DNA of 64,000 bases from the NCBI RefSeq assembly GCF_013340305.1, contig NZ_BLVP01000007.1, forward strand, positions 186,001-250,000, read 5' to 3'. Positions within the stretch are counted from its first letter, which is position 1, and each line of letters opens with the position of its first letter. Source of the stretch: Desulfovibrio psychrotolerans. Lineage in GTDB: Bacteria > Desulfobacterota > Desulfovibrionia > Desulfovibrionales > Desulfovibrionaceae. Under the pieces are notes generated by a model that worked only from the letters and a program-made list of their open reading frames with translations, was not told the DNA's origin and searched no databases. Positions 6,438 to 38,516 of this stretch are shown here, piece after piece. The translations under genes were made by a program, and so were the position numbers.

Positions 6438-6450
6438 GTTCCGTCTCCTC

Positions 6451-8700
6451 CTAGTAGCCCTTGAACGGGTTCGGACCCTTTTCGAAGATCATATTCATGA
6501 ACTCTTCGATCATATCCGGCACCTTGTCGTACTCGTCTATGGCGACTTCGTACTGTTCCACGCGGTCAGGTTCCACGCCGAGACGGTTAAGCGTTTCGGC
6601 AATGTTGTCCTTGCGGCGGTTGCAGATTTCCGATCCCTTGACAAAGTGGCACTGGTAGTCGTCACCGTATTTGCAACCGAGCATCATCACGCCGTCTATG
6701 CCCTTGGACATGGCATCCGCAACCCAGATGGCATTCACGGAGCCAAGGCAGCGCACGGGAATAATACGCACGTAGGGGCTCCACTTCTTGCCGCGGATAG
6801 CGGCCATATCCAGCGCGGGATATGCGTCGTTCTCGCAGGCGAGGATGATGACGCGCGGACCGCCGGTCTCCATGTTGTCCGGAACGTATACTTCGCGGAT
6901 CATGGTGCCTATCTGGTCGACGTTGTAGTTGTCGAAGGAGATAACGCGCTCGGGGCAGGCACCCATACAGGTACCGCAACGGCGGCAGCGGCTGTAGTTG
7001 GGCAGCGGCGTTCCCTTTTCGTCGTCATCCAGTGCGCCGAAGGGACATTCTTCCGTGCAGCGCTTGCACTGGGTGCAGCGCACAAAGTTGAACACCGGGT
7101 AGCTCAGGTCGCCGGAACGCGGATGCACAGCCACGCCGCGGTTGGCAGACTCAATGCACTGAATGGCCTTCAGGGTGGCGCCTATGGCGTCTTCTTCGGC
7201 TGCATCCAGCATCATGGGCTGACGTACGCAACCGGCGGCATACACCCCGGTGCGGCGGGTTTCGTAGGGGAAGCAGATATAGTTGGAATCCGCATACCCT
7301 TCAAACAGTTCCAGATCCGGGAAGTTCGGTCCCTGACGGTACACGAAGTTCATAATGGGATCCTTTGCCGTGGCGGGCACTATACCCGTGGGCAGAACCA
7401 CCATATCCACCGGAATATCCACATCGCCGCCCATAAGCGTGTTGGCTGCGGAAACGAGAACGCCATCGCCTTCGGCGGTAACGCTCTTGATGTCCGCCTT
7501 GGACATCATAATGCCCAGACGGTTCTGGGCAGCCTTGTAGTAGCGCTCATGAATGCCCTGCACCACCATGGAATCATAGAGTATGAAGGCCTGTCCGTCT
7601 TCAAAGGTATCGCACACATAGTTGGCCTGCTTCAGGGCAACCACGGAGCTGATGGCGTTGGAGATGGGCAGGTGACGTACGGACTCAAGGTCCTTGTGCA
7701 CATACTTGGGAGCTTCTTCCTCGCCTTCTTTCTTGGCTGCCGGCTCGGCTTCCTCAGCGCACACGGGGGCGTAAATGTCACCACCGTCCACAAGGCTCGT
7801 GTTCAGGATAAAGGCCACGCGCTTGGCGGAAAGGGTTCCTTCCTTGGCCATCTTCTCAAACTCGGCGGCGGTTACCACGTTGGGTACCGAGCCGTAGCCC
7901 AGCGGGCCGAGCACCTTGGTATTCTGCGGAACCCAGCCGGCGGCCAGCACCACGGCACCCACAGAATATTGCTCACCCTTGACGGTGGCGGTGTACTGTC
8001 CGGGCAGACCTTCCAGCATTTCAAGACGCGCGCCGGTAATAACCTTGATCTTGGAATTCTCGGTCACAGCGGCAATCTTGTTTTCTATGCCTGTGGCATG
8101 GGCGTCGGTGTAGGGATATTCCAGCGGAACGGTCTTGAGCATGCCCTTGGCGCGGCCGCCCAGTTCAGCCTCCTTCTCCACCACAATCACGTCATACCCG
8201 TAGTCCGCCGCCTGCTTGGCAGCGGTCAGGCCCGCCCAGCCGCCGCCGACAACGAGAATGGTCTTCACCGTCTCGAACTCGGGCGGAGTGGGAATTCCGG
8301 TCTTCTGCATCTTGAAGATGCCCATGTTCACATAGTCTTTTGCCATGAGCATGAGCAGTTCGGGGGCATCGTCACCGGCCTCGGGCACGGAGCCGTCTGC
8401 GTCGCGGAACGACATGACACACTGCTCGCGCAGGTTCACGCGGTCGACGATCACCCCTTCAAAGTTGTAGATATCCCAGTCAACGCGGGGAGAAGAACCG
8501 CACAGCAGCACGCCGTTCAGCCCGTTCTCTTCTATGTCCGCGCGGATTTCCGCACGGGCACTTTCCGCGGCAAGCACCGGGAAGACCTTCACGGCGGGAC
8601 ATGCACCGCCGAACTTCTTGGAAACGTGTGCAGCAAGCTCCTCGCCGTCAATGATGCCGAGAGCCGACTGGTCAAAGTATACGCCAATTTTATCGGCCAT
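6451..8700 (-). CDS. qmoB: QmoB, HdrA/MvhD-like flavoprotein subunit
   Basis: The 749-residue cytoplasmic protein resembles heterodisulfide reductase HdrA with an MvhD-like C-terminal domain. An FAD-binding GxGxxG-type motif (LVVGGGWAGLTAAKQA) is near residue 150. Two ferredoxin clusters, CTQCKRCTEECP and CRRCGTCMGACP, lie near residues 541 and 581. The C-terminal ~140 residues (from VIILACENDAYPAL) are MvhD-like and include VRCLGSVNAIWVADA. It passes electrons between menaquinone (via QmoC) and APS reductase and may take part in electron confurcation. GGGAGG lies upstream of the ATG at 8700; the gene follows qmoA after 6 bp. Confidence 0.95.
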   Translation of the reverse strand: MADKIGVYFDQSALGIIDGEELAAHVSKKFGGACPAVKVFPVLAAESARAEIRADIEENGLNGVLLCGSSPRVDWDIYNFEGVIVDRVNLREQCVMSFRDADGSVPEAGDDAPELLMLMAKDYVNMGIFKMQKTGIPTPPEFETVKTILVVGGGWAGLTAAKQAADYGYDVIVVEKEAELGGRAKGMLKTVPLEYPYTDAHATGIENKIAAVTENSKIKVITGARLEMLEGLPGQYTATVKGEQYSVGAVVLAAGWVPQNTKVLGPLGYGSVPNVVTAAEFEKMAKEGTLSAKRVAFILNTSLVDGGDIYAPVCAEEAEPAAKKEGEEEAPKYVHKDLESVRHLPISNAISSVVALKQANYVCDTFEDGQAFILYDSMVVQGIHERYYKAAQNRLGIMMSKADIKSVTAEGDGVLVSAANTLMGGDVDIPVDMVVLPTGIVPATAKDPIMNFVYRQGPNFPDLELFEGYADSNYICFPYETRRTGVYAAGCVRQPMMLDAAEEDAIGATLKAIQCIESANRGVAVHPRSGDLSYPVFNFVRCTQCKRCTEECPFGALDDDEKGTPLPNYSRCRRCGTCMGACPERVISFDNYNVDQIGTMIREVYVPDNMETGGPRVIILACENDAYPALDMAAIRGKKWSPYVRIIPVRCLGSVNAIWVADAMSKGIDGVMMLGCKYGDDYQCHFVKGSEICNRRKDNIAETLNRLGVEPDRVEQYEVAIDEYDKVPDMIEEFMNMIFEKGPNPFKGY

Positions 8701-26470: not shown

Positions 26471-27295
26471 ATGCGTATCGGAAGAATTATCGCCCTCGCG
26501 CTGGCCATCACCATGGTGGCGTCGGCCGCGTTTGCAGGCCCGGTCTATGACCGCATCATGCAGGAAAAGAAAATCCGCATCGGCATCATGACCGACTCCA
26601 TCCCCGGCGCCTTCTTTGACGAAAAGGGCGAATGGACCGGCTTTGACTACGACATCTCCACCGAACTTGCCAAGCGCATGGGCGTGGAACTTGAGCGCGT
26701 AAAGGTCAACAACAAGACCCGCATCGCCTTCATCCAGCAGAACCGCATAGACGTGTCCGTTGCCAACATGACCCACACCCGTGAACGCGACAAGTCCATC
26801 GACTTCTCCATCACCTACTTCTTCGACGGCCAGAAGGTGCTTGCCAAGAAGGGTGCCTTCGCCTCTCTGGAAGACATGAAGGACAAGAAGATCGCCACCA
26901 TGCAGGGCACCACGTCCGAAATCAACATCAAGAACGCCCTCAAGGCCCTTGGTGTTGCCAACCCCGATGCCAACGTCATCTCCTTCCAGAAGGAATCCGA
27001 GTGCTTCCAGGCACTAGAAATGGGCCGCGTGGCCGGCTGGACCACCGACGCAACCATCCTCCTCGGCTATGCCGCCAAGAAGCCCGGCGAATTTGAACTC
27101 GTAGGCGATTTCCTCTCCGACGAACCCTACGGCATGGGCCTGCCCCAGGACGATTCCGCCCTGCGTGACGCAGTGAACTTCGCCCTGCAGGATATGTGGC
27201 TCGACGGCACCTACATGGCCATTTACAACAAGTGGTACGGTCCTGAGACCCCCTACGCCATGCCCATGACCGACCAGATCGAAATCTGGCCCTAA
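26471..27295 (+). CDS. Amino-acid ABC transporter periplasmic binding protein
   Basis: The 274-residue precursor has a Sec signal peptide (MRIGRIIALALAITMVASAA, cleavage near FAG). The mature part is a family 3 solute-binding protein: IRIGIMTDSIPGAFFDEKGE, FDYDISTELAKRMG, RIAFIQQNRIDVSVANMTHT and KKIATMQGTTSE are typical of glutamate/aspartate-type binders. The ligand-contact Arg in THTRERDKSIDFS is present. It belongs with the ATPase upstream. A structured repeat element begins 3 bases after the stop codon and separates it from the permease gene. Confidence 0.92.
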   Translation: MRIGRIIALALAITMVASAAFAGPVYDRIMQEKKIRIGIMTDSIPGAFFDEKGEWTGFDYDISTELAKRMGVELERVKVNNKTRIAFIQQNRIDVSVANMTHTRERDKSIDFSITYFFDGQKVLAKKGAFASLEDMKDKKIATMQGTTSEINIKNALKALGVANPDANVISFQKESECFQALEMGRVAGWTTDATILLGYAAKKPGEFELVGDFLSDEPYGMGLPQDDSALRDAVNFALQDMWLDGTYMAIYNKWYGPETPYAMPMTDQIEIWP

Positions 27296-27297
27296 CC

Positions 27298-27441
27298 GTC
27301 TGCTGAAATCCGTTTCGACAGGCCGTTCAACAATGGCAGAATGCAGGGCGCGCAAAATGTTCAGTTCCAAAGCGTATGCAGGCATACGCGAAGATAGGAA
27401 CGTTTCGCTGCAACACAGCAGACCGCCTTTCCCCAACGGCC
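27298..27441. repeat. Intergenic palindromic repeat element, copy A
   Basis: This ~144-bp element recurs at 37912-38043. Its core is a perfect hairpin GCGTATG-CAGG-CATACGC (27372-27389), enclosed by AAATGTTC (27356-27363) pairing with GAACGTTT (27398-27405, one G-U) and TGCAG/CTGCA outside. Further arms are GGCCGTT (27321-27327) with AACGGCC (27435-27441), and GTCTGCTG (27298-27305) with CAGCAGAC (27416-27423); the last two cross each other as in a pseudoknot or alternative folds. Identity with copy B includes GGCCGTTCA, AGCGTATGCAGGCATACG and GCAACACA. It resembles ERIC-like elements in size and symmetry but not in sequence. Confidence 0.8.
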
Positions 27442-27563
27442 GCATACCATCTGGTTGCTATTGATAATCGCCGTGCGCCCGGCTCAGCCGGGCGCACGCT
27501 TGTCTGCACCAGATAACGGGCCATGCGCCCGTCCGCGCACCTCAACACAATGGTTTGCTGTTC

Positions 27564-29354
27564 ATGATACGCTTCTGGCTGGAAAAGAACTGGGTCCAAA
27601 ACGCCGTGCTGTTCACGCTTGCGGCACTCATGGTCTATTACTGGGGCTGGGTTTTCGACTTCGGCTACAAGTTCGAATGGTCCATGCTCTACACGGTGAA
27701 CGAGACCTACCAGATCAATCTGGGCTACGAGATCCTCCGCGGCCTGTGGGTCACGGTAAAAATCACCGCCGTCAGCGCCGCCATCGGTCTTGTTCTGGGC
27801 ACCGCCCTCGGCCTCTCCCGGCTTTCAGACTTCAAGCCCCTGCGCTACACCGCCACCTGCATCATAGAATTTTTCCGCAACACCCCGCTTCTGGTGGTGC
27901 TGTTCTTCTTCTATTTCGCCCTGCCCCGTGCCCTGCCGGACACCCTGCGCGAATGGGTGTTCAGCATGCAGTTCGAATTCTGGACAGCCGCCGTGGCCGT
28001 GGGCATGTACACCAGCGCCTTCATGGCAGAAGTCATCCGGGCGGGCCTGCAATCCATCCCCAAGGGCATACTGGAAGCATCCTACTCTTCGGGCCTCTCC
28101 TACGTACAGGTGCTGCGCACCATCATCCTGCCCCTGGCCTTCCGCGAAATCATCCCCCCGCTGGGCAGCGAGTTCCTCAACAACATGAAGAACACCTCGC
28201 TGGCCATGTTCGTGGGCGTGGCAGATATGACATGGCAGGCCCAGCAGGCAGAGGCACTCACCTTCAAGGGGTTCGAGGCCACAACCGCCGCATCGGTCAT
28301 GTACCTCTCCTTCTCGCTGATCATTTCTTTTGTGCTGAACGGCGTAAACTCCCGCCTGCGCACCGTGGGCAACACCGGAACCTCCGTCCCGGCACTCTTC
28401 GTCAATGCGCTCTGCTGGCCTTTCGGAACAGCCAGCCGCCTGCTGCTCAACCCGGTGGGGCGTTTCCTGCGTGCCCGCAAACGCAGGCAGGCAGCAAGCA
28501 CCTATCTTTCCAGCACCCGCGCCGCATGGCTGGCCACGCTGCGCCGGGGCAGGCAGGCACTCATCCTTGCTTCCAAGGCAGCCTTTCTGGCCTTTCTCGC
28601 CGCCTGCCTCTATACCGTGGTCAAGGGCGTGCTCGGCTTTGACTGGGCAGTCGTCGCCCGCGAATTTTCCAATCTCATCCTCTGGCAGTTTCCCAACGAG
28701 GTGGCAGACCCCTTCCTCGGTCTCGGCGGGTTCGCACTCTCGTTCATCATCGCCGTGGTCGCCATTGCGGCCAGCTTTGTCATCGGGCTGCTGGTGGGCC
28801 TCGGCCGTTGCTCAACCAACCGCATTTTCCGCATTCCCAGCCTGCTGTACATAGAAATCATCCGCGGCAACCCGCTCATAATCGTCATCTACTGGGTCTA
28901 TTTCCTCATTCCGGTGCTGTTTAACACCTTCTTCAACACGGTCTGGTCCGCCTCCATCGCGCTCACCCTGTTCACCGCGGCCTACCTTGCGGAAATCGTG
29001 CGCAGCGGCATCCAGAACATCCCGCCCGGACAGGTGGAAGCCGCCACCGCTTCCGGCCTTTCCTACTGGCAGACCATGCGCAAGATCATCCTGCCGCAGG
29101 CCCTCAAGCAGATGATTCCGCCCATCGTGGGCCTGTTTATCGCCATTTTCAAGGATACCTCGCTGGTCTCCATCCTCGGCGTCATGGAACTCACCTCCGT
29201 AGCCAAGGCCGTGGATAACCGCCTTATGGTCAACTCCATGGAAATCTGGACCCTCGCCGCCCTGCTCTACTTTGTCCCCTGCTTCTTCATGTCCAAATAC
29301 GCAGACGCGCTGGAGCGGCGGCTCAGCCCGGAAAAAGTGAACCTCAAAATGTAG
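27564..29354 (+). CDS. Fused amino-acid ABC transporter permease (two permease domains in one chain)
   Basis: The 596-residue inner-membrane protein holds two complete His/Glu/Gln-type permease domains that are usually separate genes. Domain 1 spans residues ~45-270, with FFRNTPLLVVLFFFYFALP and the EAA loop EASYSSGLSYVQVLRTIILP. Domain 2 spans ~385-590, with EIIRGNPLIIVIYWVYFLIP and the loop EAATASGLSYWQTMRKIILP. A basic linker (RFLRARKRRQA) joins them. The reading frame is open throughout, so the fusion is not a sequencing break. The ATG at 27564 is chosen; TTG at 27555 is an alternative, and neither has a clear ribosome binding site. It works with the ATPase and binding protein upstream. 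Confidence 0.9.
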   Translation: MIRFWLEKNWVQNAVLFTLAALMVYYWGWVFDFGYKFEWSMLYTVNETYQINLGYEILRGLWVTVKITAVSAAIGLVLGTALGLSRLSDFKPLRYTATCIIEFFRNTPLLVVLFFFYFALPRALPDTLREWVFSMQFEFWTAAVAVGMYTSAFMAEVIRAGLQSIPKGILEASYSSGLSYVQVLRTIILPLAFREIIPPLGSEFLNNMKNTSLAMFVGVADMTWQAQQAEALTFKGFEATTAASVMYLSFSLIISFVLNGVNSRLRTVGNTGTSVPALFVNALCWPFGTASRLLLNPVGRFLRARKRRQAASTYLSSTRAAWLATLRRGRQALILASKAAFLAFLAACLYTVVKGVLGFDWAVVAREFSNLILWQFPNEVADPFLGLGGFALSFIIAVVAIAASFVIGLLVGLGRCSTNRIFRIPSLLYIEIIRGNPLIIVIYWVYFLIPVLFNTFFNTVWSASIALTLFTAAYLAEIVRSGIQNIPPGQVEAATASGLSYWQTMRKIILPQALKQMIPPIVGLFIAIFKDTSLVSILGVMELTSVAKAVDNRLMVNSMEIWTLAALLYFVPCFFMSKYADALERRLSPEKVNLKM

Positions 29355-29377
29355 GGTTTCCCCTTCCCGGCACACAC

Positions 29378-29410
29378 GGCCCCCGGACATCTCTCCGGGG
29401 GCCTTCTTTT
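29378..29410 (+). terminator. Terminator of the amino-acid transporter operon
   Basis: GGCCCCCGGA pairs with TCCGGGGGCC over a 6-base loop, followed by TTCTTTT. Confidence 0.9.
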
Positions 29411-29724
29411 ACGCTTGCCTCCATCTCCCGCAGCCCTTCTAAGGACATAGAAATTTATTGCGACGCAAACGCATACGAATTTTAAAATTGTAACAACGAA
29501 ACATAAAATGCCCCATTTTTATCAAGTCAAAAAAAATAAAAATAGTTGCAACACAAATTCCAGGCATGATAATCACATTAGGTAATTCATAAAAAAATCT
29601 CGCGCAGTTCCTTCTCACTTATAGCGATCAACGCAGCACTACCTATAATATCACATTATCTTTAGGCGGCAATAATTCATGCACGTTACCAAACAGCGTT
29701 TGTACATTTAAAAATGGAACTACT
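29411..29724. other. Strongly AT-rich region upstream of the chemoreceptor gene
   Basis: About 315 bases are far richer in A and T than the window average, with A-runs near 29530. TATAAT at 29644-29649 is a perfect -10, but no good -35 lies 17 bases upstream. The low GC continues into the first part of the next gene. No gene was recognised. Confidence 0.55.
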
Positions 29725-31761
29725 ATGAAAAACGTTTCAATAAAGACAAAACTTATAGGTGGCTTTGTAAGCCTTCTCCTTCTTGTGTGCTCCGGAGTCG
29801 GATACATAGCATATGACAGAGCATTTCAGTCGTCGCTTGAGCAGGTGCAGGAGAATATTCCAAGCATCGCGGTAGATGGCGCAAAGCTTGTACGAAGCAG
29901 ATTGGACTACTACATGCTTGCCTTGGAGGGTGTCGCCAACAGGCATGTGATCCGTTCCATGGATTGGGGGCAGCAACAGCCCGCCCTCGTTGCTGAAAAT
30001 TCACGGCTGGGCATGCAGCAAATGGCCTTTGTCACGCCGGATGGGCATGCAAAGCTCCATGACGGAACAGAAGCGAATGTCAGTGAACGAGAGTATTTCA
30101 AGCAGGCAATGAATGGTAAGACGACTTTTTCCGATGTCATCATTCATAAAGTCCTCAACAAGCCGATTATGGTTGTCGCGTCTCCTGTCAAAGACGAAAA
30201 CGGCAAGGTTGCAGGCGTAGTCTTCGGCATTTTGGATGCTGTAATGCTCAGTGAAGTCACTGACGGAATCCGGTACGGAAGATCGGGTTACTCGTACATT
30301 ATCGATGGAAAAGGCGCGCTTATCGCACACGCAAATCGACAGTTCGTGCTCGACCAACGCAACTTTATTGAAGAATCCAGAACGAACAATGACTTTAAAA
30401 GACTCGCCGTTATGCTTCAACGAATGGTGCGTGGAGAGTCCGGATTTGATGAATATAGCTTTATGGGCTCTGACCGTTTCTTCGGGTTCTCTCCTATTGA
30501 AGGAACAGCATGGTCTATAGCGGTCGGGGCGATTAAGGATGATGTCCTGGCCCAAGTGTATCAACTACGGTGGACCATTGCCTTGGCTTCAGCCGTATTT
30601 CTGGCCTTTGGCATCGGTGCGGGATATTTCATCAGTCGTGGCATCATCCGGCCCATCCAGTTGCTGATGCAGTATGCAGGTGAGATCGAAGGTGGCAATC
30701 TGCAAGCGAAGTCCGGAATCGATCAGGGCGATGAACTGGGAAGACTCAACCGAAGCATTCAGGCAATGGTAGGCAAACTGATCGAAAAAATGAATGAAGC
30801 TGATCAGAAAACTACAGAAGCTGCCGCCGAGGCCCGTCGTGCCCAACTTGCCACGGAAGAGGCAAACGAAGCCAAAAACCGTGCTGAGCGCGCCAAGGCA
30901 GAAGGCATGATGCAGGCGGCAGCCCAGCTTGAAGGCGTTGTGGAAATCATCAGTACAGCAAGCGAGGAACTTTCCGCCCAGATCGAACAGTCCAGCAGAG
31001 GCACCGAAGTGCAGTCGCAACGGCTGGGCGAAACCGCCACCGCCATGGAGCAGATGAACGCCACCGTGCTGGAGGTTGCCCGTAATGCTTCCGAAGCGTC
31101 CGAAGCCACAGGGGTTGCCCGTTCCAAGGCTGCTGAAGGGGCAACTGTTGTCTCCCAGGCCGTACAAAGCATAACCGAAGTGCAACAGGCTTCCGTCGTC
31201 ATGAAAAACGATATGGGCACCCTCGGCAAACAGGCCGAGGGCATAGGCCAGATCATGAACGTCATTTCCGATATTGCAGACCAGACCAACCTGCTGGCCC
31301 TGAACGCCGCCATTGAAGCTGCCCGCGCAGGTGATGCCGGGCGCGGATTTGCCGTGGTGGCTGACGAGGTACGCAAGCTGGCGGAAAAGACCATGACCGC
31401 CACAAAGGAAGTAGGGCAGGCAGTTGGCGACATTCAGCAGGGTACACGCAAAAATCTGGATAACGTGGAAAATTCCGTCAGCGCCATCGGGCGGGCCACA
31501 GAACTTGCGGAAAAATCAGGACTGGCCCTGCAGGAAATTGTCACGCTGGTGGATCGAGCCGCTGATCAGGTACGCGGCATAGCAACCGCCAGCGAACAAC
31601 AGTCCTCTGCGAGCGAACAGATTAACCGCAGCGTGGAAGAGATTGACCAGATTTCGCAGGAAACAGCCAGTGCCATGAATCAATCCGCACAGGCCATAAG
31701 CGAACTGGCGGAACAGGCTATCAGGCTCCGCAGGCTTATCGAAGACATGAAAAAAGGGTAG
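29725..31761 (+). CDS. Methyl-accepting chemotaxis protein with periplasmic Cache sensor domain
   Basis: The 678-residue receptor has a first membrane helix at residues ~9-29 and a double-Cache-type periplasmic domain to ~280 (MQQMAFVTPDGHAKLHDGTE, YGRSGYSYIIDGKGALIAH). A second helix at ~287-307 leads to a HAMP region and a long cytoplasmic coiled coil. The signalling tip contains IEAARAGDAGRGFAVVADEV, the conserved CheA/CheW-binding hairpin. It senses a small extracellular ligand and drives chemotaxis. The first ~1 kb uses AT-rich codons, unlike the GC-rich second half, suggesting a recombined or acquired sensor module. No CheR/CheB docking pentapeptide is seen at the C-terminus. Confidence 0.93.
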   Translation: MKNVSIKTKLIGGFVSLLLLVCSGVGYIAYDRAFQSSLEQVQENIPSIAVDGAKLVRSRLDYYMLALEGVANRHVIRSMDWGQQQPALVAENSRLGMQQMAFVTPDGHAKLHDGTEANVSEREYFKQAMNGKTTFSDVIIHKVLNKPIMVVASPVKDENGKVAGVVFGILDAVMLSEVTDGIRYGRSGYSYIIDGKGALIAHANRQFVLDQRNFIEESRTNNDFKRLAVMLQRMVRGESGFDEYSFMGSDRFFGFSPIEGTAWSIAVGAIKDDVLAQVYQLRWTIALASAVFLAFGIGAGYFISRGIIRPIQLLMQYAGEIEGGNLQAKSGIDQGDELGRLNRSIQAMVGKLIEKMNEADQKTTEAAAEARRAQLATEEANEAKNRAERAKAEGMMQAAAQLEGVVEIISTASEELSAQIEQSSRGTEVQSQRLGETATAMEQMNATVLEVARNASEASEATGVARSKAAEGATVVSQAVQSITEVQQASVVMKNDMGTLGKQAEGIGQIMNVISDIADQTNLLALNAAIEAARAGDAGRGFAVVADEVRKLAEKTMTATKEVGQAVGDIQQGTRKNLDNVENSVSAIGRATELAEKSGLALQEIVTLVDRAADQVRGIATASEQQSSASEQINRSVEEIDQISQETASAMNQSAQAISELAEQAIRLRRLIEDMKKG

Positions 31762-31777
31762 CCCAACGATCATACAA

Positions 31778-31812
31778 AGCCTCCCCCTGCGCACTCTGGC
31801 TCCGGGGGAGGC
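31778..31812 (+). terminator. Terminator after the chemoreceptor gene
   Basis: AGCCTCCCCC pairs with GGGGGAGGCT, with TGTTCTC following. It begins about 17 bases after the stop. Confidence 0.8.
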
Positions 31813-31929
31813 TGTTCTCTCATTTCATCTGCCAGTACCTATCTCCCTGTGATAAAGAGCTTTTTCCCGCCAACTCTATACTTCCGCTTCTCCGGTACAA
31901 TGGCTATAGAATGGTAAAGGAGAGTCCCC

Positions 31930-32700
31930 ATGCGCCCATCCGTCCGCTCTGCCTTCATCGCCCTGCTTGCCGCCGGGTTGCTCAGCGTGCTGGCCTACCC
32001 CCTGCTCTCCGCTCGCCCATCCTTAACCCTTGTCTGCGATATCTGGCCGCCGTATCAGTATGAAACGGAATACGGCGTAGACGGCTTCTCCGTTGCGGTC
32101 GTAAGCCGCGTGTTCGAGGAGATGGGCATCGAAATGAAGCCGCTTCAGGCCTTTCCATGGAAGCGGGCCATGGAGATTCTGGAACACGGCCATGCAGACG
32201 GCCTCTTTTCCGCCAACTTCACCCCGGACCGCGCCCTCTTTGCCCACTTCCCGCAGGAATCACTTGTCGATACCCCGTGGGTGATATGGACCCGCAACAG
32301 CCCCATCCGGTCCATGGAAGACCTCAAGGGCAAGCGCATCGGCGTCGTGCTGGGCTACAGCTACACACAGGAATTCTGGGACTTCATAGAAACCTACTGC
32401 GTGGTGGAACAGGTGCACGCAGACTTCCTCAATTTCCGCAAACTGCAGTTAGGCAGGCTGGACGCCACCGTAGCGGAACTGGGCAACGGCCTGCACATTC
32501 TGCGTATGCTGAAGGATGAAACTATCCGCCCCCACATGGACATCACGGTCAAAACAGACGGCCTGTTCCTCATTTTCAGCAGACGCGGAGTGCCGGAAGA
32601 AACCGTCAATGACTTCTCCGCGCACCTGCGCCGGTTCAAAGAAACGGAAGCCTACCGGAAACTGCACGAACATTACTTTCCGCTCCCCCCTTCTCTCTGA
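31930..32700 (+). CDS. Periplasmic family 3 solute-binding protein, orphan
   Basis: The 256-residue protein has a signal or anchor segment (SAFIALLAAGLLSVLAYPLL) and then a family 3 solute-binding fold: CDIWPPYQYETEYGVDGFSV, FPWKRAMEILEHGHADGLFS, NSPIRSMEDLKGKRIGVVLG. Such proteins bind amino acids or related small ligands. No permease or ATPase is adjacent, so it may serve as a sensor partner or work with an unlinked transporter. AAGGAG lies before the ATG. Confidence 0.82.
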   Translation: MRPSVRSAFIALLAAGLLSVLAYPLLSARPSLTLVCDIWPPYQYETEYGVDGFSVAVVSRVFEEMGIEMKPLQAFPWKRAMEILEHGHADGLFSANFTPDRALFAHFPQESLVDTPWVIWTRNSPIRSMEDLKGKRIGVVLGYSYTQEFWDFIETYCVVEQVHADFLNFRKLQLGRLDATVAELGNGLHILRMLKDETIRPHMDITVKTDGLFLIFSRRGVPEETVNDFSAHLRRFKETEAYRKLHEHYFPLPPSL

Positions 32701-32888
32701 GCAGAGGCAGACGCAATCTCCGGCCTCTGGCGGCTCTTCCCGGCTCCCGCATAGTGCTGGAAAAGCTCCTGCCGCCTTCCCGCCAGTGCCTCACAGCCCC
32801 TCCCCCCGTCCCCTGTATTCCTGATTCTGCTCGCTAACATCCCGCACTCATGGTACTCTCAAGGTACAAGGAACCAAGGAGCACCACC

Positions 32889-33863
32889 ATGTCATCCGAA
32901 GTCCGCGAACTCATACGCACCCACCTGCCGGAATTTCCTCTCCGTCACTGCCGCCATCTCGTCACGGACACCACGCAGTTCATGTCCATTGACTACGGCG
33001 ATGTCATCCGCGTGGCCAACCGCCACTACCTTGTCTACAAAAACGAGATGGAACGCCGCTTCGGGCTGGAAGACCCCAAGTACTGGGTCAAACGCTGCCA
33101 TGAACTGGAAACCGGCGAGCGCAAGATTCTCAAGCTGGAATTCTTCGAAACCTTCCCCATTCAGGTGGGCAGGCTCAATGTGGAATGCTTCCGCAGCCCC
33201 GATAAGGAAAGCCGCATACTGGATCTGGTGCGGGGCGATATGCGCTTTATGCAGGGCTTCACCGCGCGCGATGCCGTAGACCGCAACGTGCGCGTGCTGG
33301 ATATTGTCTCCGGCAGAAGACTGGACATAACCGTAGACCGACTGGACGCGGACCACGCCACCTATTTCCGCACACACCTTCCGGGTCTGCTGCGCACCTA
33401 TCTGGGAGCCATCAGAGCCATCGGCACCCTGCACGAACATGGTGAACGCCACGGCGATATCCGCCGCGACCACCTCTATGTGGAGTTCGAAACAGGCCAA
33501 TGGCGGTGGATAGACTTCGACTACACCTTCAAGTCCTACGAACACCCCTTCGGGCTCGACCTGTTCGGGCTGGGCAACATACTGGTCTTTCTGGTGGGCA
33601 AGGCCAATATCACGGTGCAGTCGCTGGAATCGCTCGGCCTGCCGGAAGAGCGCACGGAAAAGCTCACGTCAGACGACCTGTCCATCGTCATCCCCAACCG
33701 CATCGTCAACCTGCGCAAGCTCTACCCTTACATACCGGAACAGCTCAACCGGGTGCTCATGCATTTTGCCGCCGGTGCCCCCGTGTTCTACAACACCACC
33801 ACCGAACTGATGGAAGACCTCACCCCCTGCGTGGAAGAACTGGAACGGCTGGCATCCCGCTGA
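32889..33863 (+). CDS. Protein kinase-like fold protein
   Basis: The ATG at 32889 (AAGGAG upstream) gives 324 residues. The middle holds a degenerate kinase catalytic region. LHEHGERHGDIRRDHLYVE near residue 180 resembles the HxDxxxxN catalytic loop of small-molecule and lipopolysaccharide kinases, with HGD-IRRDH in place of HGDLHxxN. WRWIDFDYTFKSYEHPFGLD resembles the DFG/IDF metal-binding segment. The N-terminal lobe lacks a clear glycine-rich loop, but YLVYKNEMERRFG and ILKLEFFETF could supply the lysine. It probably phosphorylates a protein or small molecule. A universal stress protein gene follows after 46 bases. Confidence 0.6.
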   Translation: MSSEVRELIRTHLPEFPLRHCRHLVTDTTQFMSIDYGDVIRVANRHYLVYKNEMERRFGLEDPKYWVKRCHELETGERKILKLEFFETFPIQVGRLNVECFRSPDKESRILDLVRGDMRFMQGFTARDAVDRNVRVLDIVSGRRLDITVDRLDADHATYFRTHLPGLLRTYLGAIRAIGTLHEHGERHGDIRRDHLYVEFETGQWRWIDFDYTFKSYEHPFGLDLFGLGNILVFLVGKANITVQSLESLGLPEERTEKLTSDDLSIVIPNRIVNLRKLYPYIPEQLNRVLMHFAAGAPVFYNTTTELMEDLTPCVEELERLASR

Positions 33864-33909
33864 CCACCCCCTCCGGAACCGCCATGCGACCGGCATAAGG
33901 AGAACAGAC

Positions 33910-34398
33910 ATGCAAACCCAAAAGATCCTGCTCGCGTTCGATTCCTCAGAAAGCTCATACAATGCCGTGGCCTACGCAGGCAGCATGCTCGCCCATGTGC
34001 CGGACGTACACGTCACCCTTGTTTTCGTGGAACGCCTGCCGGACCGCGACTTCTTTCCGGACGAGGCATCGTGGCGGGCAGAGTGCGACAGCAGGACGCA
34101 GGCCCACCACCGCCACCTGTCTGCGGCACGCACCCGCCTTACGGAATACGGCATTCCCGCAGCAGCCATAGACGAGCGCTACCTTGCCAGCTGCAAATCT
34201 CCCTTCGGGCAGGCAACGGTGTGCAGCACGGGCGAAAGCGTGGTGGAAGACATCCTGCGCATTCAGCGTGAGGAAGGGTACGGAACCGTCATCGTGGGCA
34301 AGCGGGGGGTTTCCAGAACAGAGGCATTCCTCTTCGGCAGCGTCTCCAACCGCATCATTCAGGAAACGCAGGGCTGCACCGTCTGGGTAGTGGGATAA
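33910..34398 (+). CDS. Universal stress protein, ATP-binding type
   Basis: The 162-residue protein starts with ILLAFDSSESSYNAVAYAGS, the USP alpha/beta core. It ends with VGKRGVSRTEAFLFGSVSN, matching GxxGx9GS, the nucleotide-binding signature of ATP-binding USP proteins. Residues 45-80 form a charged helical insert. AAGGAG lies before the ATG. Its close link to a kinase-like gene suggests they act together. The gene ends 2 bases before the convergent glycosyltransferase, with no terminator between. Confidence 0.88.
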   Translation: MQTQKILLAFDSSESSYNAVAYAGSMLAHVPDVHVTLVFVERLPDRDFFPDEASWRAECDSRTQAHHRHLSAARTRLTEYGIPAAAIDERYLASCKSPFGQATVCSTGESVVEDILRIQREEGYGTVIVGKRGVSRTEAFLFGSVSNRIIQETQGCTVWVVG

Positions 34399-34400
34399 GC

Positions 34401-35642
34401 CTACCCCAGCCTGCCCGTCCCTGCGTCCAGCACCATCTGCACGCTGCGGGGCAGCAGGGTTTCCAGATTGTAGTGCTCCGCAATGGTCTGCCGTGCGCGT
34501 TTGCGCATGGGCACAAAGTCTGCGGGCCTCTCCAGTGCGCCGCACACGGCATCCGCAATGGCGCGCGGCGAAAAAAAGTCCACCAGCACGCCGTTTACGC
34601 CGGAGGTAATCACCTCTTCCACAGGCGGCGTGGCAGAGGCAATAACAGGCGCGCCGCAACTCATGGCCTCCAGCATCGACCACGAGAGCACAAAGGGCCG
34701 TGTCAGGTACACATGGGCCATGGAATGCTGCAATACCTGCCGGTACTGCCCATAGGGCAGTCCGCCCGTAAAATGCACCCGGTCCATGCCGGGAACCCCT
34801 TCCAGCTTTTTCAGCATCACAGACTTCCACGTCCCCCCGCCTTCCGGCGGACGTCCGTAACAGACACGGTCTTCCCCCACAATAACCACATGCGCACCGG
34901 AACGCCGCTCCAGAATATCCGGCAGCGCCTCCATAAACTGGGGGAACCCCCGATACGGCTCCATGCCCCGCGTGGCATAGGTGACTATCTCCCGCACACC
35001 GCCAAGGTCCAGACCGGGCAACACCAGCCCGCGTCGCCGTTCCTCCGCAGAAAGCGGCGCAAAGAACTGCGTATCCACCCCGTCATGGCACACGGTCAGC
35101 TTGTCCCTGAAGGCGGGCGGAAACTGCGCCGCCTGCCACGTTGTGGGCAGCTGCCCCGCGCAGCAGGCCTCAAGGTCGCTCAGAATGGGCAGGTTGCGCA
35201 CACGCAGATTCATGCGCAGGGCATCGTTTACCGGTTCGGCGGGATCAAACCCCACATCGGCCCCCTGCGCCCGGTAATACCACTCAAAGTATCCCAGAAA
35301 GGGCGTACGGGGCAGCGCATCACGCACAAACAGGCTGGCCCCCCAGCCGGAATGGGCCACCACCACGTCCGGCACAAAACCGGCATCAGCCAGCTTGCGG
35401 CAGAGCACGTATCCGGCCTCTCCCTGCGCCGCCACGGTCTCGAAATGCAGGGCAAACCGGTGCACCCCCTTGGGCGGCATGAACCGGGTGGCAAACTGCA
35501 CCTTGCGCACGCCGGGAATAACCCATTCCGGGCGGGGATTGGTGCAGGCAAAAACCACCTCATGGGCGGGATCACGCCCCAGCGCCGCCGCAACATGCCG
35601 GAACTGTGCAGGAAAATTGGGATGTATGAACAAAATCTTCAA
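34401..35642 (-). CDS. Family 4-type glycosyltransferase
   Basis: The 413-residue cytoplasmic enzyme has the GT-B fold. Its N-terminus is MKILFIHPNFPAQFRHVAAA. The C-terminal donor-site block is visible as PFVLSWSMLEAMSCGAPVIA near residue 320, including the family E-x7-E-like element. A mid-section VTYATRGMEPYRGFPQFMEA precedes it. It transfers a nucleotide-activated sugar to an unknown acceptor. The start is TTG at 35642, supported by GGAGG six bases upstream. It lies 51 bases after the nucleoside transporter gene on the same strand. Confidence 0.85.
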   Translation of the reverse strand: MKILFIHPNFPAQFRHVAAALGRDPAHEVVFACTNPRPEWVIPGVRKVQFATRFMPPKGVHRFALHFETVAAQGEAGYVLCRKLADAGFVPDVVVAHSGWGASLFVRDALPRTPFLGYFEWYYRAQGADVGFDPAEPVNDALRMNLRVRNLPILSDLEACCAGQLPTTWQAAQFPPAFRDKLTVCHDGVDTQFFAPLSAEERRRGLVLPGLDLGGVREIVTYATRGMEPYRGFPQFMEALPDILERRSGAHVVIVGEDRVCYGRPPEGGGTWKSVMLKKLEGVPGMDRVHFTGGLPYGQYRQVLQHSMAHVYLTRPFVLSWSMLEAMSCGAPVIASATPPVEEVITSGVNGVLVDFFSPRAIADAVCGALERPADFVPMRKRARQTIAEHYNLETLLPRSVQMVLDAGTGRLG

Positions 35643-35693
35643 ACGCCGCCTCCGTGTCTGAACCGCCCTCCCCTCCGCACGGGGACAAAGAAC

Positions 35694-36932
35694 CTAATAC
35701 AGCAGGCCCACCACGGCCCCTGTCATGCAGGTTGCCAGGGTACCTGCCACAATGGACTTCATGCCCAGCGAGACAACCTCGTCTTTCCGCTCCGGCGTCA
35801 GTGCAGCAAGCCCTCCGATAAGAATACCAAGACTCCCCAGATTGGCAAACCCGCACATGGCATAGGTCATAATGGTCACGGAGCGGGGAGAAAGGGCATC
35901 CGGCGGCAGGGCAGCCAACTGCAGATAGGCTATAAACTCGTTCAGAATCGTCTTGGTGCCCATGAGCTGGGCCGCCTGTGCCGCTTCTGCGGCAGGAATG
36001 CCCATCAGCCACACCACGGGCCACATCACAAACCCCAAAAGCCGTTCCAGCGTAACAGGCTTTCCGCCAACATGCGGCAAAAACTCCAGCAACTGGTTGC
36101 CCAGCGCCACAAGCGCCACAAGCACCAGCAACATTGCCACCACGTTGATCAGCAGCTTCACCCCCTCCGCCGTGCCCTTTGTTATGGCATCCATGGAGCT
36201 TACTGCGTCCGACATGGGGTCTGCATCTCCGGCGGTTCGGCCTTCCCGCTCCGGCACCATGAGCCGGGAAACAAGAATGGCCGCAGGGGCGCTGATAATG
36301 GATGCGGTAAGAATATGCCCGATGGCACCGGGCAGCACGCCGTTCAAAATGCTGGCATACAGAACAAGCACAGTGCCGGATAACGTAGCCATACCGCTGG
36401 TCATAAGCGTAAAGAGTTCACTGCGCGTCATGCGGCGCACATAGGGAGCAATAATAATCGGTGCCTCAACCATGCCGACAAACACGTTGGCTGCCACGCC
36501 CAGCCCCAACGCACCGCCCACGTCCATGGTTCTTTGCAGCACCAGCGAGAATCCGCGCACCACAAGGGGGATAATGCGCCAGTAAAACAGCAGAGCGGAA
36601 AGGGCGCTCACCACAAGAATGAGCGGCAGTGCCTGAAATGCCAGAATCCAGCTTCCCCCGGGCACTGTTTCGTCATAGGGCAGCGCTCCGCCTCCCAGAT
36701 ACCCGAAGATGAACGACGTACCTGCCATGGTAGCCTGCTGCAGCGCATCCACCAGCCCGTTCAACCCCATGAGCATGGACTGGAACACAGGCACCTTAAG
36801 GAGCAACAGCGCGGCGGCGAACTGAAGCAGCAACCCTGCAACAATGACGCGCGGCTCCACCTTCCTCCGGTCTTCGCTTATGGCCCATGCCAGCACGGTA
36901 AATCCTATCACGCCTGCCAAACTCTGTATCAT
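35694..36932 (-). CDS. NupC-family concentrative nucleoside transporter
   Basis: The 412-residue inner-membrane protein imports nucleosides with H+ or Na+. CNT-family landmarks are visible: FIFGYLGGGALP near residue 95, GLGVAANVFVGMVEAPIIIA near 150, LMTSGMATLSGTVLVLYASIL near 180, and in the C-terminal half LMGTKTILNEFIAYLQL and MTYAMCGFANLGSLGILIGG. About ten hydrophobic segments are present. The ATG at 36932 has GGAGC upstream. Specificity for purine or pyrimidine nucleosides cannot be read from the sequence. Confidence 0.92.
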   Translation of the reverse strand: MIQSLAGVIGFTVLAWAISEDRRKVEPRVIVAGLLLQFAAALLLLKVPVFQSMLMGLNGLVDALQQATMAGTSFIFGYLGGGALPYDETVPGGSWILAFQALPLILVVSALSALLFYWRIIPLVVRGFSLVLQRTMDVGGALGLGVAANVFVGMVEAPIIIAPYVRRMTRSELFTLMTSGMATLSGTVLVLYASILNGVLPGAIGHILTASIISAPAAILVSRLMVPEREGRTAGDADPMSDAVSSMDAITKGTAEGVKLLINVVAMLLVLVALVALGNQLLEFLPHVGGKPVTLERLLGFVMWPVVWLMGIPAAEAAQAAQLMGTKTILNEFIAYLQLAALPPDALSPRSVTIMTYAMCGFANLGSLGILIGGLAALTPERKDEVVSLGMKSIVAGTLATCMTGAVVGLLY

Positions 36933-37017
36933 GCCCGCTCCGATTGTGCCCGTCCATGCGGTCTTATGCAGTCTTCATCTCCCATAAATCCTGCGCCAAC
37001 CTATTGTATTTTCACCT

Positions 37018-37083
37018 GCCGCACAATGCCTGTACTGTGCCTGCACGGTGCCCGCACAATACCTGCACCATGTCTGCAAGAGC
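37018..37083. repeat. Degenerate 11-bp tandem repeat
   Basis: Six consecutive 11-base units can be read, such as CCTGTACTGTG, CCTGCACGGTG, CCCGCACAATA and CCTGCACCATG. They lie between the nucleoside transporter start and the rubrerythrin terminator. The unit resembles the 11-bp repeat before hsp20 at 58248-58280. One turn of DNA per unit suggests protein binding on one face, or simple slippage. The remainder of 36933-37227 holds no gene. Confidence 0.6.
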
Positions 37084-37090
37084 CCGAAAC

Positions 37091-37122
37091 AAAAACGGGC
37101 ACCGGCACAAAGCCGATGCCCG
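37091..37122 (-). terminator. Rubrerythrin terminator
   Basis: On the minus strand CGGGCATCGGC pairs with GCCGGTGCCCG and is followed by TTTTTG. It lies about 105 bases after the rubrerythrin stop. Confidence 0.75.
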
Positions 37123-37227
37123 CACGGGAATCATCATACGAAACAGCCCATGCCGCCCGTAAGCATCACGCGAAGACCAATCGATTACCCGCCGGTACTG
37201 GCCGGTTACCAACCGGTTTCCAGCAAA

Positions 37228-37806
37228 TTACCAATTAGTCGCCTTCTTTTCAAAATGCGCCTGCGGATGGATACAGGCGGGGCAAAGCTCAGGTGCCTCG
37301 GTACCCGTGTGGTTGTACCCACAGTTGCGGCAACGCCAGACAATGCTCTCTTCCTTGCGGAACACCAGCCCCTTTTCCAGATTGCTTATCAGGGCGCGGT
37401 AACGCTCCTCGTGGTATTCTTCCGCAATACAGATGCTGCGGTACATCTTTGCCACATCCGGGAACCCTTCCTCGTCCGCCACGCGGGCAAACTCGGGATA
37501 CAGCTCCACAAACTCCTCGTGCTCACCATGGGCAGCCGCCTTCAGGCACTCCAGCGTGGTGTCCAGCTTCCCTGCGGGGAAGGAGGCGGTAATCTCCACA
37601 TCGCCGCCTTCAAGGAACTTGAACATGCGCTTGGCATGTTCCTTCTCATGGTTGGCGGTTTCTTCAAAGATGTGGCTGATCTGCACATACCCTTCCTTCT
37701 TGGCAATGGCGGCAAAGTAGGTGTAGCGGTTGCGCGCCTGCGATTCTCCGGCAAAGGAGGTGAGCAGGTTCTTTTCCGTACGGGATCCCTTGATGGATTT
37801 AGACAT
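37228..37806 (-). CDS. rbr: Rubrerythrin
   Basis: The 192-residue protein is a non-heme di-iron peroxidase that reduces hydrogen peroxide in anaerobes. The N-terminal four-helix bundle has ligand motifs ESQARNRYTYFA, EETANHEKEHA near residue 48, GEHEEF and AEEYHEERY near 128. The C-terminal rubredoxin-like domain has CRNCGY near residue 158 and CPACIHPQAHF near 173, giving two CxxC pairs for one iron. Length and domain order fit typical rubrerythrin. GGAGAG lies before the ATG. A repeat element lies upstream, between it and the lipoprotein gene. Confidence 0.96.
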   Translation of the reverse strand: MSKSIKGSRTEKNLLTSFAGESQARNRYTYFAAIAKKEGYVQISHIFEETANHEKEHAKRMFKFLEGGDVEITASFPAGKLDTTLECLKAAAHGEHEEFVELYPEFARVADEEGFPDVAKMYRSICIAEEYHEERYRALISNLEKGLVFRKEESIVWRCRNCGYNHTGTEAPELCPACIHPQAHFEKKATNW

Positions 37807-37911
37807 TCTATTCTCTCCTTACAGTAGAGACACGGGGTTACATGACAAAAAGGGCGGAACACTCTCTCCGCCCGCAAATAGCATACGCTCGCCGTAGGCG
37901 ACTGCAGAAAC

Positions 37912-38043
37912 GTCACTTCCGGGGGCCGTTCATAAATGGTTGTACATGTTGCAGGAAATGTTCAGAATTGAAGCGTATGCAGGCATACGTGCAGCTCTGA
38001 ACATTTCGAAGCAACACAACAGAGTGCTTGCAGTAAACGGTCC
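37912..38043. repeat. Intergenic palindromic repeat element, copy B
   Basis: This is the second copy of the element at 27298-27441. AAATGTTCAGA (37956-37966) and TCTGAACATTT (37996-38006) form a perfect 11-bp stem, enclosed by TGTTGC/GCAACA (37947 and 38011). The inner hairpin is GTATG-CAGG-CATAC (37975-37988). The outer arms GGCCGTT (37924-37930) and AACGGTCC (38036-38043) keep pairing through a G-U. It lies between the lipoprotein stop and the rubrerythrin start. Confidence 0.8.
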
Positions 38044-38051
38044 GTCAGCGG

Positions 38052-38516
38052 TTAATGACGCACGCGCGCCGAACCGTCGCTGGCGCGCAGCACGCGCACC
38101 CGGTCGCCCACGGCAAAAAATTCGCCGCCCGCTTCCTGCACCACGGTCACAATCTTGCCGTCATCCTGTTCCACGGTCAGCTCAAGTGCTTCCTTGTTAC
38201 CCACGGCATGTTCCGTTGCCGCACCGGCTGCACCGCCAAGCACAGCACCGCCAAGCACAGCAAGGGTCTTGCCGGAACTGCGCCCCATGGTGCTGCCTAT
38301 CACGCCACCCACCACCGCTCCGCCAAGCGCGCCCAGTCCGGACTGCTCAGCCTGCATGGTCACACTCCGCACATCCGTAATCTTGCCGTACACCACCGTG
38401 TGTTCCACCCGCGCCTGTCCGGGCGAGTAGACGTTGCCGCTCCTGTTGTAACACCCGGTCGCAAGCAGCGACAGAGCCAACAGGGCCATAACGAGAACGG
38501 TCGGTATTCTTTTCAT
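38052..38516 (-). CDS. Glycine-zipper outer-membrane lipoprotein (SlyB/Pcp type)
   Basis: The ATG at 38516 (GGAGAG upstream) gives 154 residues. The signal peptide ends in a lipobox, SLLATGC, so Cys near residue 22 is lipidated. Residues ~60-105 form a glycine zipper, GALGGAVVGGVIGSTMGRSS and VLGGAVLGGAAGAATEHAVG, as in SlyB/Pcp-like 2TM proteins. The C-terminal third (ELTVEQDDGKIVTVVQEAGG) is a small beta domain. Such lipoproteins stabilise the outer membrane. The frame also starts upstream at 38534, but that codon lacks a good site. Confidence 0.85.
   Translation of the reverse strand: MKRIPTVLVMALLALSLLATGCYNRSGNVYSPGQARVEHTVVYGKITDVRSVTMQAEQSGLGALGGAVVGGVIGSTMGRSSGKTLAVLGGAVLGGAAGAATEHAVGNKEALELTVEQDDGKIVTVVQEAGGEFFAVGDRVRVLRASDGSARVRH

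Follow-up and report, generated by a model that had tools for sequence, protein, structure and literature searches.

A MITE-like repeat with a conserved hairpin fold in sulfate-reducing and related bacteria

Two similar intergenic repeats in the 64,000-nucleotide stretch of Desulfovibrio psychrotolerans DNA analysed here (the window) raise the question of whether such sequences are mobile palindromic elements or conserved structured elements, the two readings offered by a first-pass annotation. We find that the repeats, A and B, belong to a single MITE-like mobile element, some 145-150 bp long, whose copies occur in many sulfate reducers and related bacteria. Both readings hold together.

Two copies in the window and their family

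Copy A is best taken as positions 27296-27443 and lies immediately 3' of the TAA stop (27293-27295) of a gene for an extracellular solute-binding protein of family 3 (PF00497, 26471-27295, plus strand), with which it is co-directional rather than convergent. A gene for a binding-protein-dependent transport permease (PF00528, 27570-29354, plus strand, start codon uncertain) follows. Copy B extends over 37899-38044, its left boundary being set by analogy with A, near a rubrerythrin gene (PF02915, 37228-37806, minus strand); about 9 bp separate the end of its core from the stop codon (TAA, minus strand, 38052-38054) of a glycine-zipper gene (PF05433, 38052-38534, minus strand) that faces the 3' end of the element. 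The proximity to stop codons noted in the first-pass annotation is thereby upheld with slightly moved boundaries, since A had been placed 3 bases after its stop codon, which it abuts directly, and B 8 bases before its own. The long blocks GGCCGTTCA, AGCGTATGCAGGCATACG and GCAACACA were located in both copies, as were the quoted arms AAATGTTC/GAACGTTT in A and AAATGTTC/GAACATTT in B, together with AACGGCC and AACGGTCC.

The common core comprises 121 positions. In a cmsearch of the window with a covariance model that had A and B among its training copies, the cores of A (27321-27441) and B (37924-38042, with the element end at about 38044) scored 106.6 and 95.8 bits on the plus strand, their antisense strands 36.2 and 22.6 bits, and the next match 18 bits. 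A blastn query with A by itself already matched B in part, along with six other places. On the plus strand of A, the core is preceded by a left terminal repeat or leader (27296-27320), a degenerate form of CAGGNTGTTGAAAAAGTC assigned from its position relative to the left terminal repeat elsewhere and from the length difference to congeners. Alignment gives an outer stem in which 27321-27327 pair with 27435-27441, the latter being part of the right terminal repeat that ends at about 27443. Inside it lie the 5' side of a conserved internal loop (27340-27353, consensus GATGCnAGGCGCAA in 140 copies), a hypervariable middle stem recognised from alignment and covariation (27354-27368 paired with 27392-27406), a conserved apical hairpin GCGTAT...ATACGC (27371-27390, alignment and consensus) and the 3' side of the internal loop (27407-27422, consensus GcAGCAACrmmGCAGA in 140 copies). 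The corresponding plus-strand features of B are a degenerate leader (37899-37923, with the left limit again by analogy and by equivalence of position) and, in the alignment, middle-stem arms at 37955-37969 and 37993-38007.

Further copies, whose absence would have counted against the first-pass reading, are present: this genome has 16 distinct copies, and 33 of 59 sampled genomes have members of the family. The family also occurs in Syntrophaceae, Omnitrophota and others, and one genome holds more than 70 copies. Antisense, overlapping or identical matches were removed before this last count, as they were for the orientation counts, the G011 middle stems and the 90-copy alignment given below. 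No pair exceeds 85% identity among 46 copies in genome G011 (nearest-neighbour median 77%) and none exceeds 90% among 66 copies in G133, so these copies are old. In G043, 11 of the 20 fetched copies share one core sequence at different sites. A single copy used as blastn query (E<=1e-3) found no match in plasmids and phages, and IMG/VR contained one contig with the exact pattern, which suggests that the element is mainly chromosomal, even though queries of this kind can miss members of a diverse family. Searches against Rfam (4227 families) gave no match to the element at the gathering score: they returned only SRP RNA and a tRNA for the whole window, no match at E<=1 for window positions 27250-27500, and one sub-threshold match, outside the element, for eight loci that carry further copies (E<=0.1). 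We found no description of the repeat family in the main texts of the open-access literature searched.

Terminal repeats, target sites and a candidate mobiliser

The family has inverted terminal repeats, CAGGNTGTTGAAAAAG... and ...TTTTTCAACNGCCTG. Among 73 copies with a recognisable left terminal repeat matching the right end (up to two substitutions allowed), 40 had identical 4-bp flanks, as compared to a mean of 5.6 and a maximum of 12 in shuffles, and 29 of these 40 flanks read NTAR; copies too close to a locus end were left out of these and of the orientation and orthologue counts. In the G043 set the flanks were identical in 15 of 18 copies. The proximity of the copies to stop codons is explained by this target, because NTAR contains TAA/TAG. 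In the window, the left ends of A and B are both degenerate relative to the family repeat; the flanks of A agree in two of four letters (CTAA/ATAC) and B has no recognisable duplication. The plus-strand tetranucleotide CTAA (27292-27295), which includes the stop codon, is the presumed insertion target of A, as judged from the sequence, the flank duplications of other copies and the empty site.

Empty sites were found for two copies. A is absent from the same site in all nine congeners (at L287, L288, L291 and L292 as judged from alignment coordinates): when lengths are taken between identical aligned flanks, the window exceeds G003, G005 and G006 by 152 bp and the six other congeners by 146-149 bp, and the empty site in G006 reads ...GTGGCCCTAA GCCGCAACG. 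Likewise, the stop codon that precedes one G043 copy (L090) has orthologues in G051, G038 and G047, none of which is directly followed by the element. The family thus displays three features of a MITE, namely terminal inverted repeats, target site duplications and empty sites, and these, with the identical dispersed copies, bear out the reading as a mobile palindromic element. Of the earlier comparison with ERIC and MITEs, the second half stands for the same reasons, and the likeness to ERIC is one of kind.

The closest candidate for a mobiliser is an IS5-family insertion sequence (NCBIfam NF033581) at 6239-7777 of the IMG/VR contig L473. Its ends, CAGGGTGTTGAAAAAG and CAGGCTGTTGAAGAAG, and the CTAG on both sides match the ends and target of the repeat; these ends and the duplication constitute the link, and the insertion sequence was not found with these ends in host genomes. 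A distant relative of its transposase is present in 3 of 199 genomes of the order. DDE_Tnp_1 (PF01609) had no match in G043 and G013; in a search of six genomes it matched in four, and ends checked at 8 of the 14 loci revealed no insertion sequence with the ends of the family. The same was true of 23 loci checked for PF13546 (IS701-like), which matched in 18 of 150 genomes. Two candidates were rejected: the transposase copies of G137 have different ends (...GCTGACAAACCC), and a pair of terminal repeats 2.3 kb apart in G051 encloses no autonomous element but two similar genes, which from their translations we read as protease-like, each followed by a tiny remnant of the element. An IS5-like mobiliser of the repeat is likely.

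Compensatory evolution of the fold at gene ends

As a single strand, the body of the element can fold into a long three-helix hairpin, in which hypervariable yet complementary stems surround near-fixed loop bases (G27 in 138 of 140 copies, C94 in 138 of 139 and A71 in 139 of 139). Both sides change in 43 of the 44 pairs in G133, with a score of 0.684 against 0.256 after shuffling in an alignment fitted to the model, and 583 of 644 cells in the middle stems of G011 are Watson-Crick pairs. The first-pass annotation had also suggested a pseudoknot or a switch between folds in A. The crossing arms exist as letters, but over 84 copies the complementarity between leader and 3' loop is at the level of chance (mean best run 5.21, against 5.08 and a maximum of 5.32 for shuffled leaders), and a run of 8 is reached by A alone among six copies shown from its own genome. 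The pseudoknot was therefore rejected.

To follow resident copies, we compared orthologous sites aligned by sequence, 34 of the 66 G133 copies being matched by one in G011 at the corresponding position. With one 100% identical site left out, we counted 45 double Watson-Crick changes versus 12.5 in shuffled data (maximum 22), and 112 versus 30.4 (maximum 46) in the more diverged half of the sites. This excess indicates that resident copies keep their fold; covariation in homologous regions, on which the reading as a conserved structured element depended, is thus present and strong. At 17 of the 34 sites the element identity is 59-69%, compared to 61% (sd 6) for unrelated copies, and a different G011 copy is more similar, so independent re-insertion is possible there. 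G-U-compatible differences, emphasised in the first-pass annotation, account for one part of the changes and full replacements for another: changes between Watson-Crick and G-T numbered 50 at the 17 closer sites and 74 at the 17 others, versus 24 and 19 between Watson-Crick and A-C, and broken pairs occur too (26 and 58 with other mismatches, besides those with A-C). An alignment of 90 copies, fitted to the model, contained 310 G-T and 69 A-C pairs, 170 of the 310 falling in four columns that are wobble-paired in many copies. Between orthologues, 17.1% of the unpaired positions and 15.2% of the stem positions have changed; since unpaired positions change as fast as stems, the constraint on the loops rests on particular bases.

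A convergent stop codon lies within 20 bp of the 3' end in 37 of 66 copies in G133 (23 at 0-4 bp) and in 35 of 74 in G011 (19 at 0-4 bp). Among tandem genes the copies lie in either orientation (64 antisense, 37 sense). The better-folding strand runs antisense to the neighbouring gene. Its RNA MFE is -56.8 versus -47.7 for the other strand and is the lower of the two in 121 of 140 copies, and the orthologue changes, with 50 involving G-T versus 24 involving A-C, favour the same strand. This speaks against a simple role as an mRNA 3'-UTR. We found 32 convergent genes at the 34 orthologous G133 sites, a sample biased towards conserved genes; 20 were scanned with Pfam and 19 had a family, mostly ordinary core genes such as enolase, GatB, HisG, HisA and three tRNA synthetases, and the 20 had no common functional theme.

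Taken as a whole, these data are probably best explained by a MITE-like element with IS5-type mobilisation, whose gene-end hairpins are retained for a REP-like action. An IS5-type DDE transposase would move the element in trans, and a target that resembles a stop codon would direct insertion often exactly to gene ends, where it should be harmless. Copies at gene ends would then be kept, the hairpin directly after the stop codon acting in a REP-like manner on the mRNA 3' end or on the DNA at the ends of transcription units. We infer this gene-end function from position and fold; the paired mutations that, in some species, preserve the fold of resident copies after genes suggest that these copies have been co-opted by the cell. 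More tentatively, the element may have been turned, in some lineages of Desulfovibrionales, into a permanent device at gene ends, with dozens of copies in one orientation directly after the stops of core genes, long kept as a precise fold whose near-fixed internal-loop bases are read by a host factor while the stems drift by compensation.

It is unlikely that the repeat is a purely selfish structured MITE, in which the fold serves transposition only, for example through recognition of a single-stranded hairpin, and residents are junk, young within each transposition lineage. The mobile hallmarks, the high copy number and patchy distribution, the core shared by over half of the fetched G043 copies and a strand-specific G-T excess that fits a single-stranded DNA intermediate all agree with it, but the copies in G011 and G133 are old by their low mutual identity, yet the G011 middle stems remain mostly Watson-Crick paired, and orthologous copies compensate after insertion. 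Long imperfect palindromes are in principle substrates for template switching during replication, which could copy one arm onto the other and produce compensation without selection on the fold. The similar rates of change of stems and summed unpaired positions would fit such homogenisation, which we nevertheless hold to be somewhat less likely still, as it should have erased the near-fixed, non-complementary internal-loop bases in 140 copies, and the excess of G-T over A-C changes between orthologues is unexpected under symmetric correction.

A bidirectional intrinsic terminator, a long hairpin with an A-run and a T-run at its base kept at the ends of transcription units, is improbable. The position after stop codons, the A5/T5 that many copies have at the base of the stem and one terminator-like site at L390 (minus strand) that overlaps the element 3' end speak for it, but 51 of the 140 G011 and G133 copies lack both a T4 in the 3' arm and an A4 in the 5' arm, the scan found no terminator at A, and the sole terminator-like site at B lies outside the element (37873-37852, minus strand); the GC hairpin directly followed by a T run that defines intrinsic terminators is not a feature of the family. 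Least probable of all is an autonomous small RNA gene spread as a family and expressed from the plus strand, despite the more stable fold and conserved internal-loop bases of that strand, given the two orientations among tandem genes, the single weak promoter-like match at A, which overlaps the element start, with none at B, and a copy number above 70 in one genome.

The MITE-like element is of wider interest since bacterial MITEs are usually regarded as decaying junk. Dozens of copies with known orthology, from genomes in which many others reside, make selection on the fold of a settled transposable element measurable, and in one genus the elements mark gene ends in a fixed orientation, so that the old question of a host function of palindromic repeats becomes directly testable. 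The family, which has no match in Rfam, is also supplied for the annotation of Desulfobacterota and their relatives.

Comparison with known repeats

Integron attC sites are delimited by R boxes of the form RYYYAAC ... GTTRRRY; the repeat ends GGCYGTT...AACRGCC are of opposite polarity, and this candidate was rejected. The bacterial MITEs covered in a review are likewise short, geneless, intergenic and present in many copies, with terminal inverted repeats and flank duplications, and QMITE2 has a core similar in size to the repeat. The repeat differs from them in its conserved fold, its near-fixed loop bases and the compensatory evolution of resident orthologues; neither "covari" nor "compensatory" occurs in the main text of the review.

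REPs are not known to duplicate their target on insertion. None of their tags, GTAG or CGTC, was conserved at the element ends examined. In the available parts of two accounts of REPs, BIMEs and RAYTs (PMC3733652, PMC12306157), REPs resemble the repeat in being palindromic and extragenic, in the frequency of GT pairs and in the location of some directly after stop codons, and ribosome stalling is reported for REPs that lie within 15 nt of a stop. According to the same parts REPs are tagged and 20-40 bp long, whereas the repeat is untagged, about 121-148 bp long and has terminal inverted repeats with 4-bp duplications (PMC3733652, PMC12306157). MRSC-65-2 also has a covarying long stem and dozens of copies per genome, and is thought to be mobile and possibly to act as DNA, but it consists, as far as the accessible part of the study describes it, of a single long stem with a conserved UYCCGG that is absent from the core consensus of 140 copies (PMC11109978). 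The accessible part of that study, which used a Geobacter genome, lists 250 candidates for mobile or repeat sequences, and the present family could be an unnamed entry among them (PMC11109978).

Covariance model and distribution of the element

The sequence blocks and arms that the first-pass annotation had quoted for the two copies of the ~145-bp structured repeat, A (27296-27443) and B (37899-38044), were all found in the window. A covariance model of the element core (R1; 121 positions), trained on A, B and four further copies found in the same genome by blastn with A, scored A at 106.6 bits and B at 95.8 bits, and the next place in the window, the antisense of A and B aside, reached 18 bits. 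In the six-copy alignment, stem cells were paired in 90.2% of cases versus 83.4% with shuffled partners and 36-40% with slid ones; in the inner helix, both sides had changed at six pairs. Just downstream of A is a perfect GC-rich palindrome, GTGCGCCCGGCTCAGCCGGGCGCAC (27473-27497), and congeners without A have similar palindromes at the corresponding place. The segment 21195-21290 encodes the bacterial small SRP RNA (RF00169).

Further copies were present both in the D. psychrotolerans genome and in its relatives. At E<=0.001, R1 gave 21 matches in the own genome. Five were antisense to a higher-scoring match, so that 16 distinct copies remain, with scores down to about 30 bits. Some lie in tandem arrays, with three copies 154 bp apart on contig C43 (L009, 1695-2121) and two copies 167 bp apart on C8 (L010, 1887-2174); in the C43 array CAACATCC is abundant in the spacers and the first copy has an unrelated 5' arm. 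R1 matched 33 of 59 genomes (the own genome and 58 relatives) and 18 of 38 genera, with 1 to 61 matches per positive genome, antisense matches included; the other 26 genomes had none. A pattern scan of named genomes yielded at least 117 stretches, those listed including ones from Syntrophaceae, Smithella, Desulfovibrio, Pseudodesulfovibrio, Omnitrophota, Bdellovibrio and one Firmicutes MAG. Eighty were examined as loci and R1 matched 76 of these, 21 letters being already fixed by the pattern itself. The pattern matched one contig in IMG/VR, and blastn with one copy as query gave no match in plasmid and phage collections.

Several variants were observed. In one subfamily (L112, L113, L338-L345; genomes G043, G047, G038 and G055), the left arm of the middle stem is lengthened by about 80 bp of small hairpins, CCGGACACGTCCTGTGTCCGG...GATTTGCCGTCCTGGCAATCGAATC, a feature that recurs among several species of one genus. 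In variants from Syntrophaceae UBA4054 (L145, L159, L168, L177, L183, L197) the inner part is replaced by another palindromic repeat, GTTCGACAAGCTCACCATGACA...CCTGTCGAAGGG. Genome G051 contains two 34-bp remnants (L128, 6334-6367 and 8561-8594) that consist of the two element ends only, have ATAA on both sides and are located one behind each of two similar protease-like genes.

Ends, target sites and mobility

The repeat is mobile. Of 20 copies taken from G043 (a single contig of 3.76 Mb), 11 had the same core, and their identity continued for 29 bases upstream of it before ending sharply. This added stretch, C(A/T)GNNNGTTGAAAAA, repeats the 3' end, TTTTTCAACNGNCTG, in inverted orientation. 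Among the 73 copies whose left repeat could be recognised, 40 were flanked by the same four letters on both sides, compared to 5.6 expected (maximum 12) when right flanks were redealt; in the G043 set the count was 15 of 18. Among the 40 identical flanks, 29 were of the form NTAR (CTAA 9, CTAG 7, TTAA 5, GTAA 3, ATAG 2, ATAA 2, TTAG 1). Between aligned flanks at locus A, the window is longer by 152 bp than three congeners (G003, G005 and G006), corresponding to the 148-bp element plus 4, and by 146-149 bp than six others; in G006, ...GTGGCCCTAA is joined straight to GCCGCAACG. At locus B, the closest congeners aligned on the rubrerythrin side only. Since NTAR contains TAA and TAG, insertion at this presumed target would duplicate a stop codon and spare the gene, which accounts for the place of copy A immediately after a stop codon. 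A G043 copy (L090) is located at a stop codon with TTAA on both sides; G051, G038 and G047 have no element behind the orthologous stop, and the region beyond could not be aligned.

Searches with PF01609 and PF13546 revealed no insertion sequence (IS) with the element's ends in the hosts, and G043, which has identical copies, had zero PF01609 matches. The same end sequence, with CTAG on both sides, borders a 1539-bp IS on IMG/VR contig L473, whose transposase is of the NCBIfam IS5_4 type. Within the order, 3 of 199 genomes had matches to this transposase, and the copies so found in G137 had ends different from those of the element. We therefore infer an IS5-type mobiliser from the ends and the flank duplication. 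Two other IMG/VR loci (L471 and L475) contain short elements of about 154-163 bp with the same CAGG..GTTGAAAAA ends and different bodies, one of them with CTAG on both sides, and this end type may be common to several MITE families.

Conservation of the fold in resident copies

Resident copies retain the fold. In the copy-rich genome G011, 46 copies had a mean identity of 64% and a median nearest-neighbour identity of 77%, none exceeding 85%, and judging from these sequences they are mutually old. Their middle stems averaged 53% identity, yet 583 of 644 cells were Watson-Crick. Within its congener G133, 43 of 44 pairs covaried (score 0.684, versus 0.256 shuffled and 0.09-0.14 slid) in an alignment fitted to the model.

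To compare orthologous copies, we took part of the R1 matches in G011 (131) and G133 (118), antisense included, and removed antisense and duplicate rows, retaining 74 and 66 copies. With right flanks aligned within 15 bp, which imposes the same orientation, 34 of the 66 G133 copies shared their place with a G011 copy; no pair in opposite orientation occurred at that offset. Element identity at shared sites was 59-100% (mean 74%; flanks 82%), compared to 61% (sd 6) for unrelated copies. Unlike the G133 covariation analysis, the orthologue test used a sequence-only alignment, with base pairs taken from R1. At 16 sites with identities of 0.73-0.999, 45 pairs had changed at both bases and were still Watson-Crick, whereas 12.5 were expected (maximum 22 in 1000) when partners were exchanged among like pairs. 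At 17 more diverged sites there were 112 such changes versus 30.4 expected (maximum 46), but another G011 copy was closer in each case, so that re-insertion of a different copy behind that stop codon offers an alternative explanation there. Single changes that broke a Watson-Crick pair to AC or to other combinations numbered 24 and 26 at the closer sites and 19 and 58 at the more diverged ones, alongside 50 and 74 changes to GT. Particular unpaired bases were nearly invariant, with G27 in 138 of 140 copies, C94 in 138 of 139 and A71 in 139 of 139, although between orthologues unpaired positions overall changed as fast (17.1%) as stems (15.2%). One orthologous pair (L410/L447) was 100% identical over 121 bp with flanks at 79%, possibly reflecting conversion, transfer or unusually strong constraint.

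Position at gene ends and relation to known repeats

With ORFs called by a simple script instead of a gene finder, 177 copies from many genomes had 55 ORF stops and 3 starts within 15 bp of the 3' end, compared to 21 stops and 20 starts on the 5' side (45 bp). A convergent stop lay within 20 bp of the 3' end in 37 of 66 G133 copies (23 at 0-4 bp) and 35 of 74 G011 copies (19 at 0-4 bp), whereas stops at the 5' side were scattered. Among tandem genes, 64 copies were antisense and 37 sense. The better-folding strand is antisense to the convergent gene, with mean RNA energies of -56.8 versus -47.7 kcal/mol (lower in 121 of 140 copies). On this strand, single changes between orthologues went to GT 50 times and to AC 24 times. 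These observations are inconsistent with a plain 3'-UTR hairpin, and the acting form may be single-stranded DNA or antisense RNA.

The most probable reading is a MITE-like element with a folded body that, once inserted at gene ends, came to be of use or at least under constraint. A simple terminator is disfavoured: one terminator-like site does overlap an element in L390, but 51 of 140 copies have neither a T4 run in the 3' arm nor an A4 run in the 5' arm, and at B such a site lies apart, outside the element. The main non-selective alternative is that template switching homogenises the arms. The G-T excess and the near-fixed mismatched loop bases make it less likely.

As to covarying mobile repeats, the reported class MRSC-65-2, from a study that lists 250 candidates (PMC11109978), has a signature that differs from that of the element. 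By the definition in PMC3733652, the element is not a REP sequence, being without the GTAG/CGTC tag and of different size, but it resembles REP elements in its position behind stop codons, and those within 15 nt of a stop are reported to stall ribosomes (PMC12306157).
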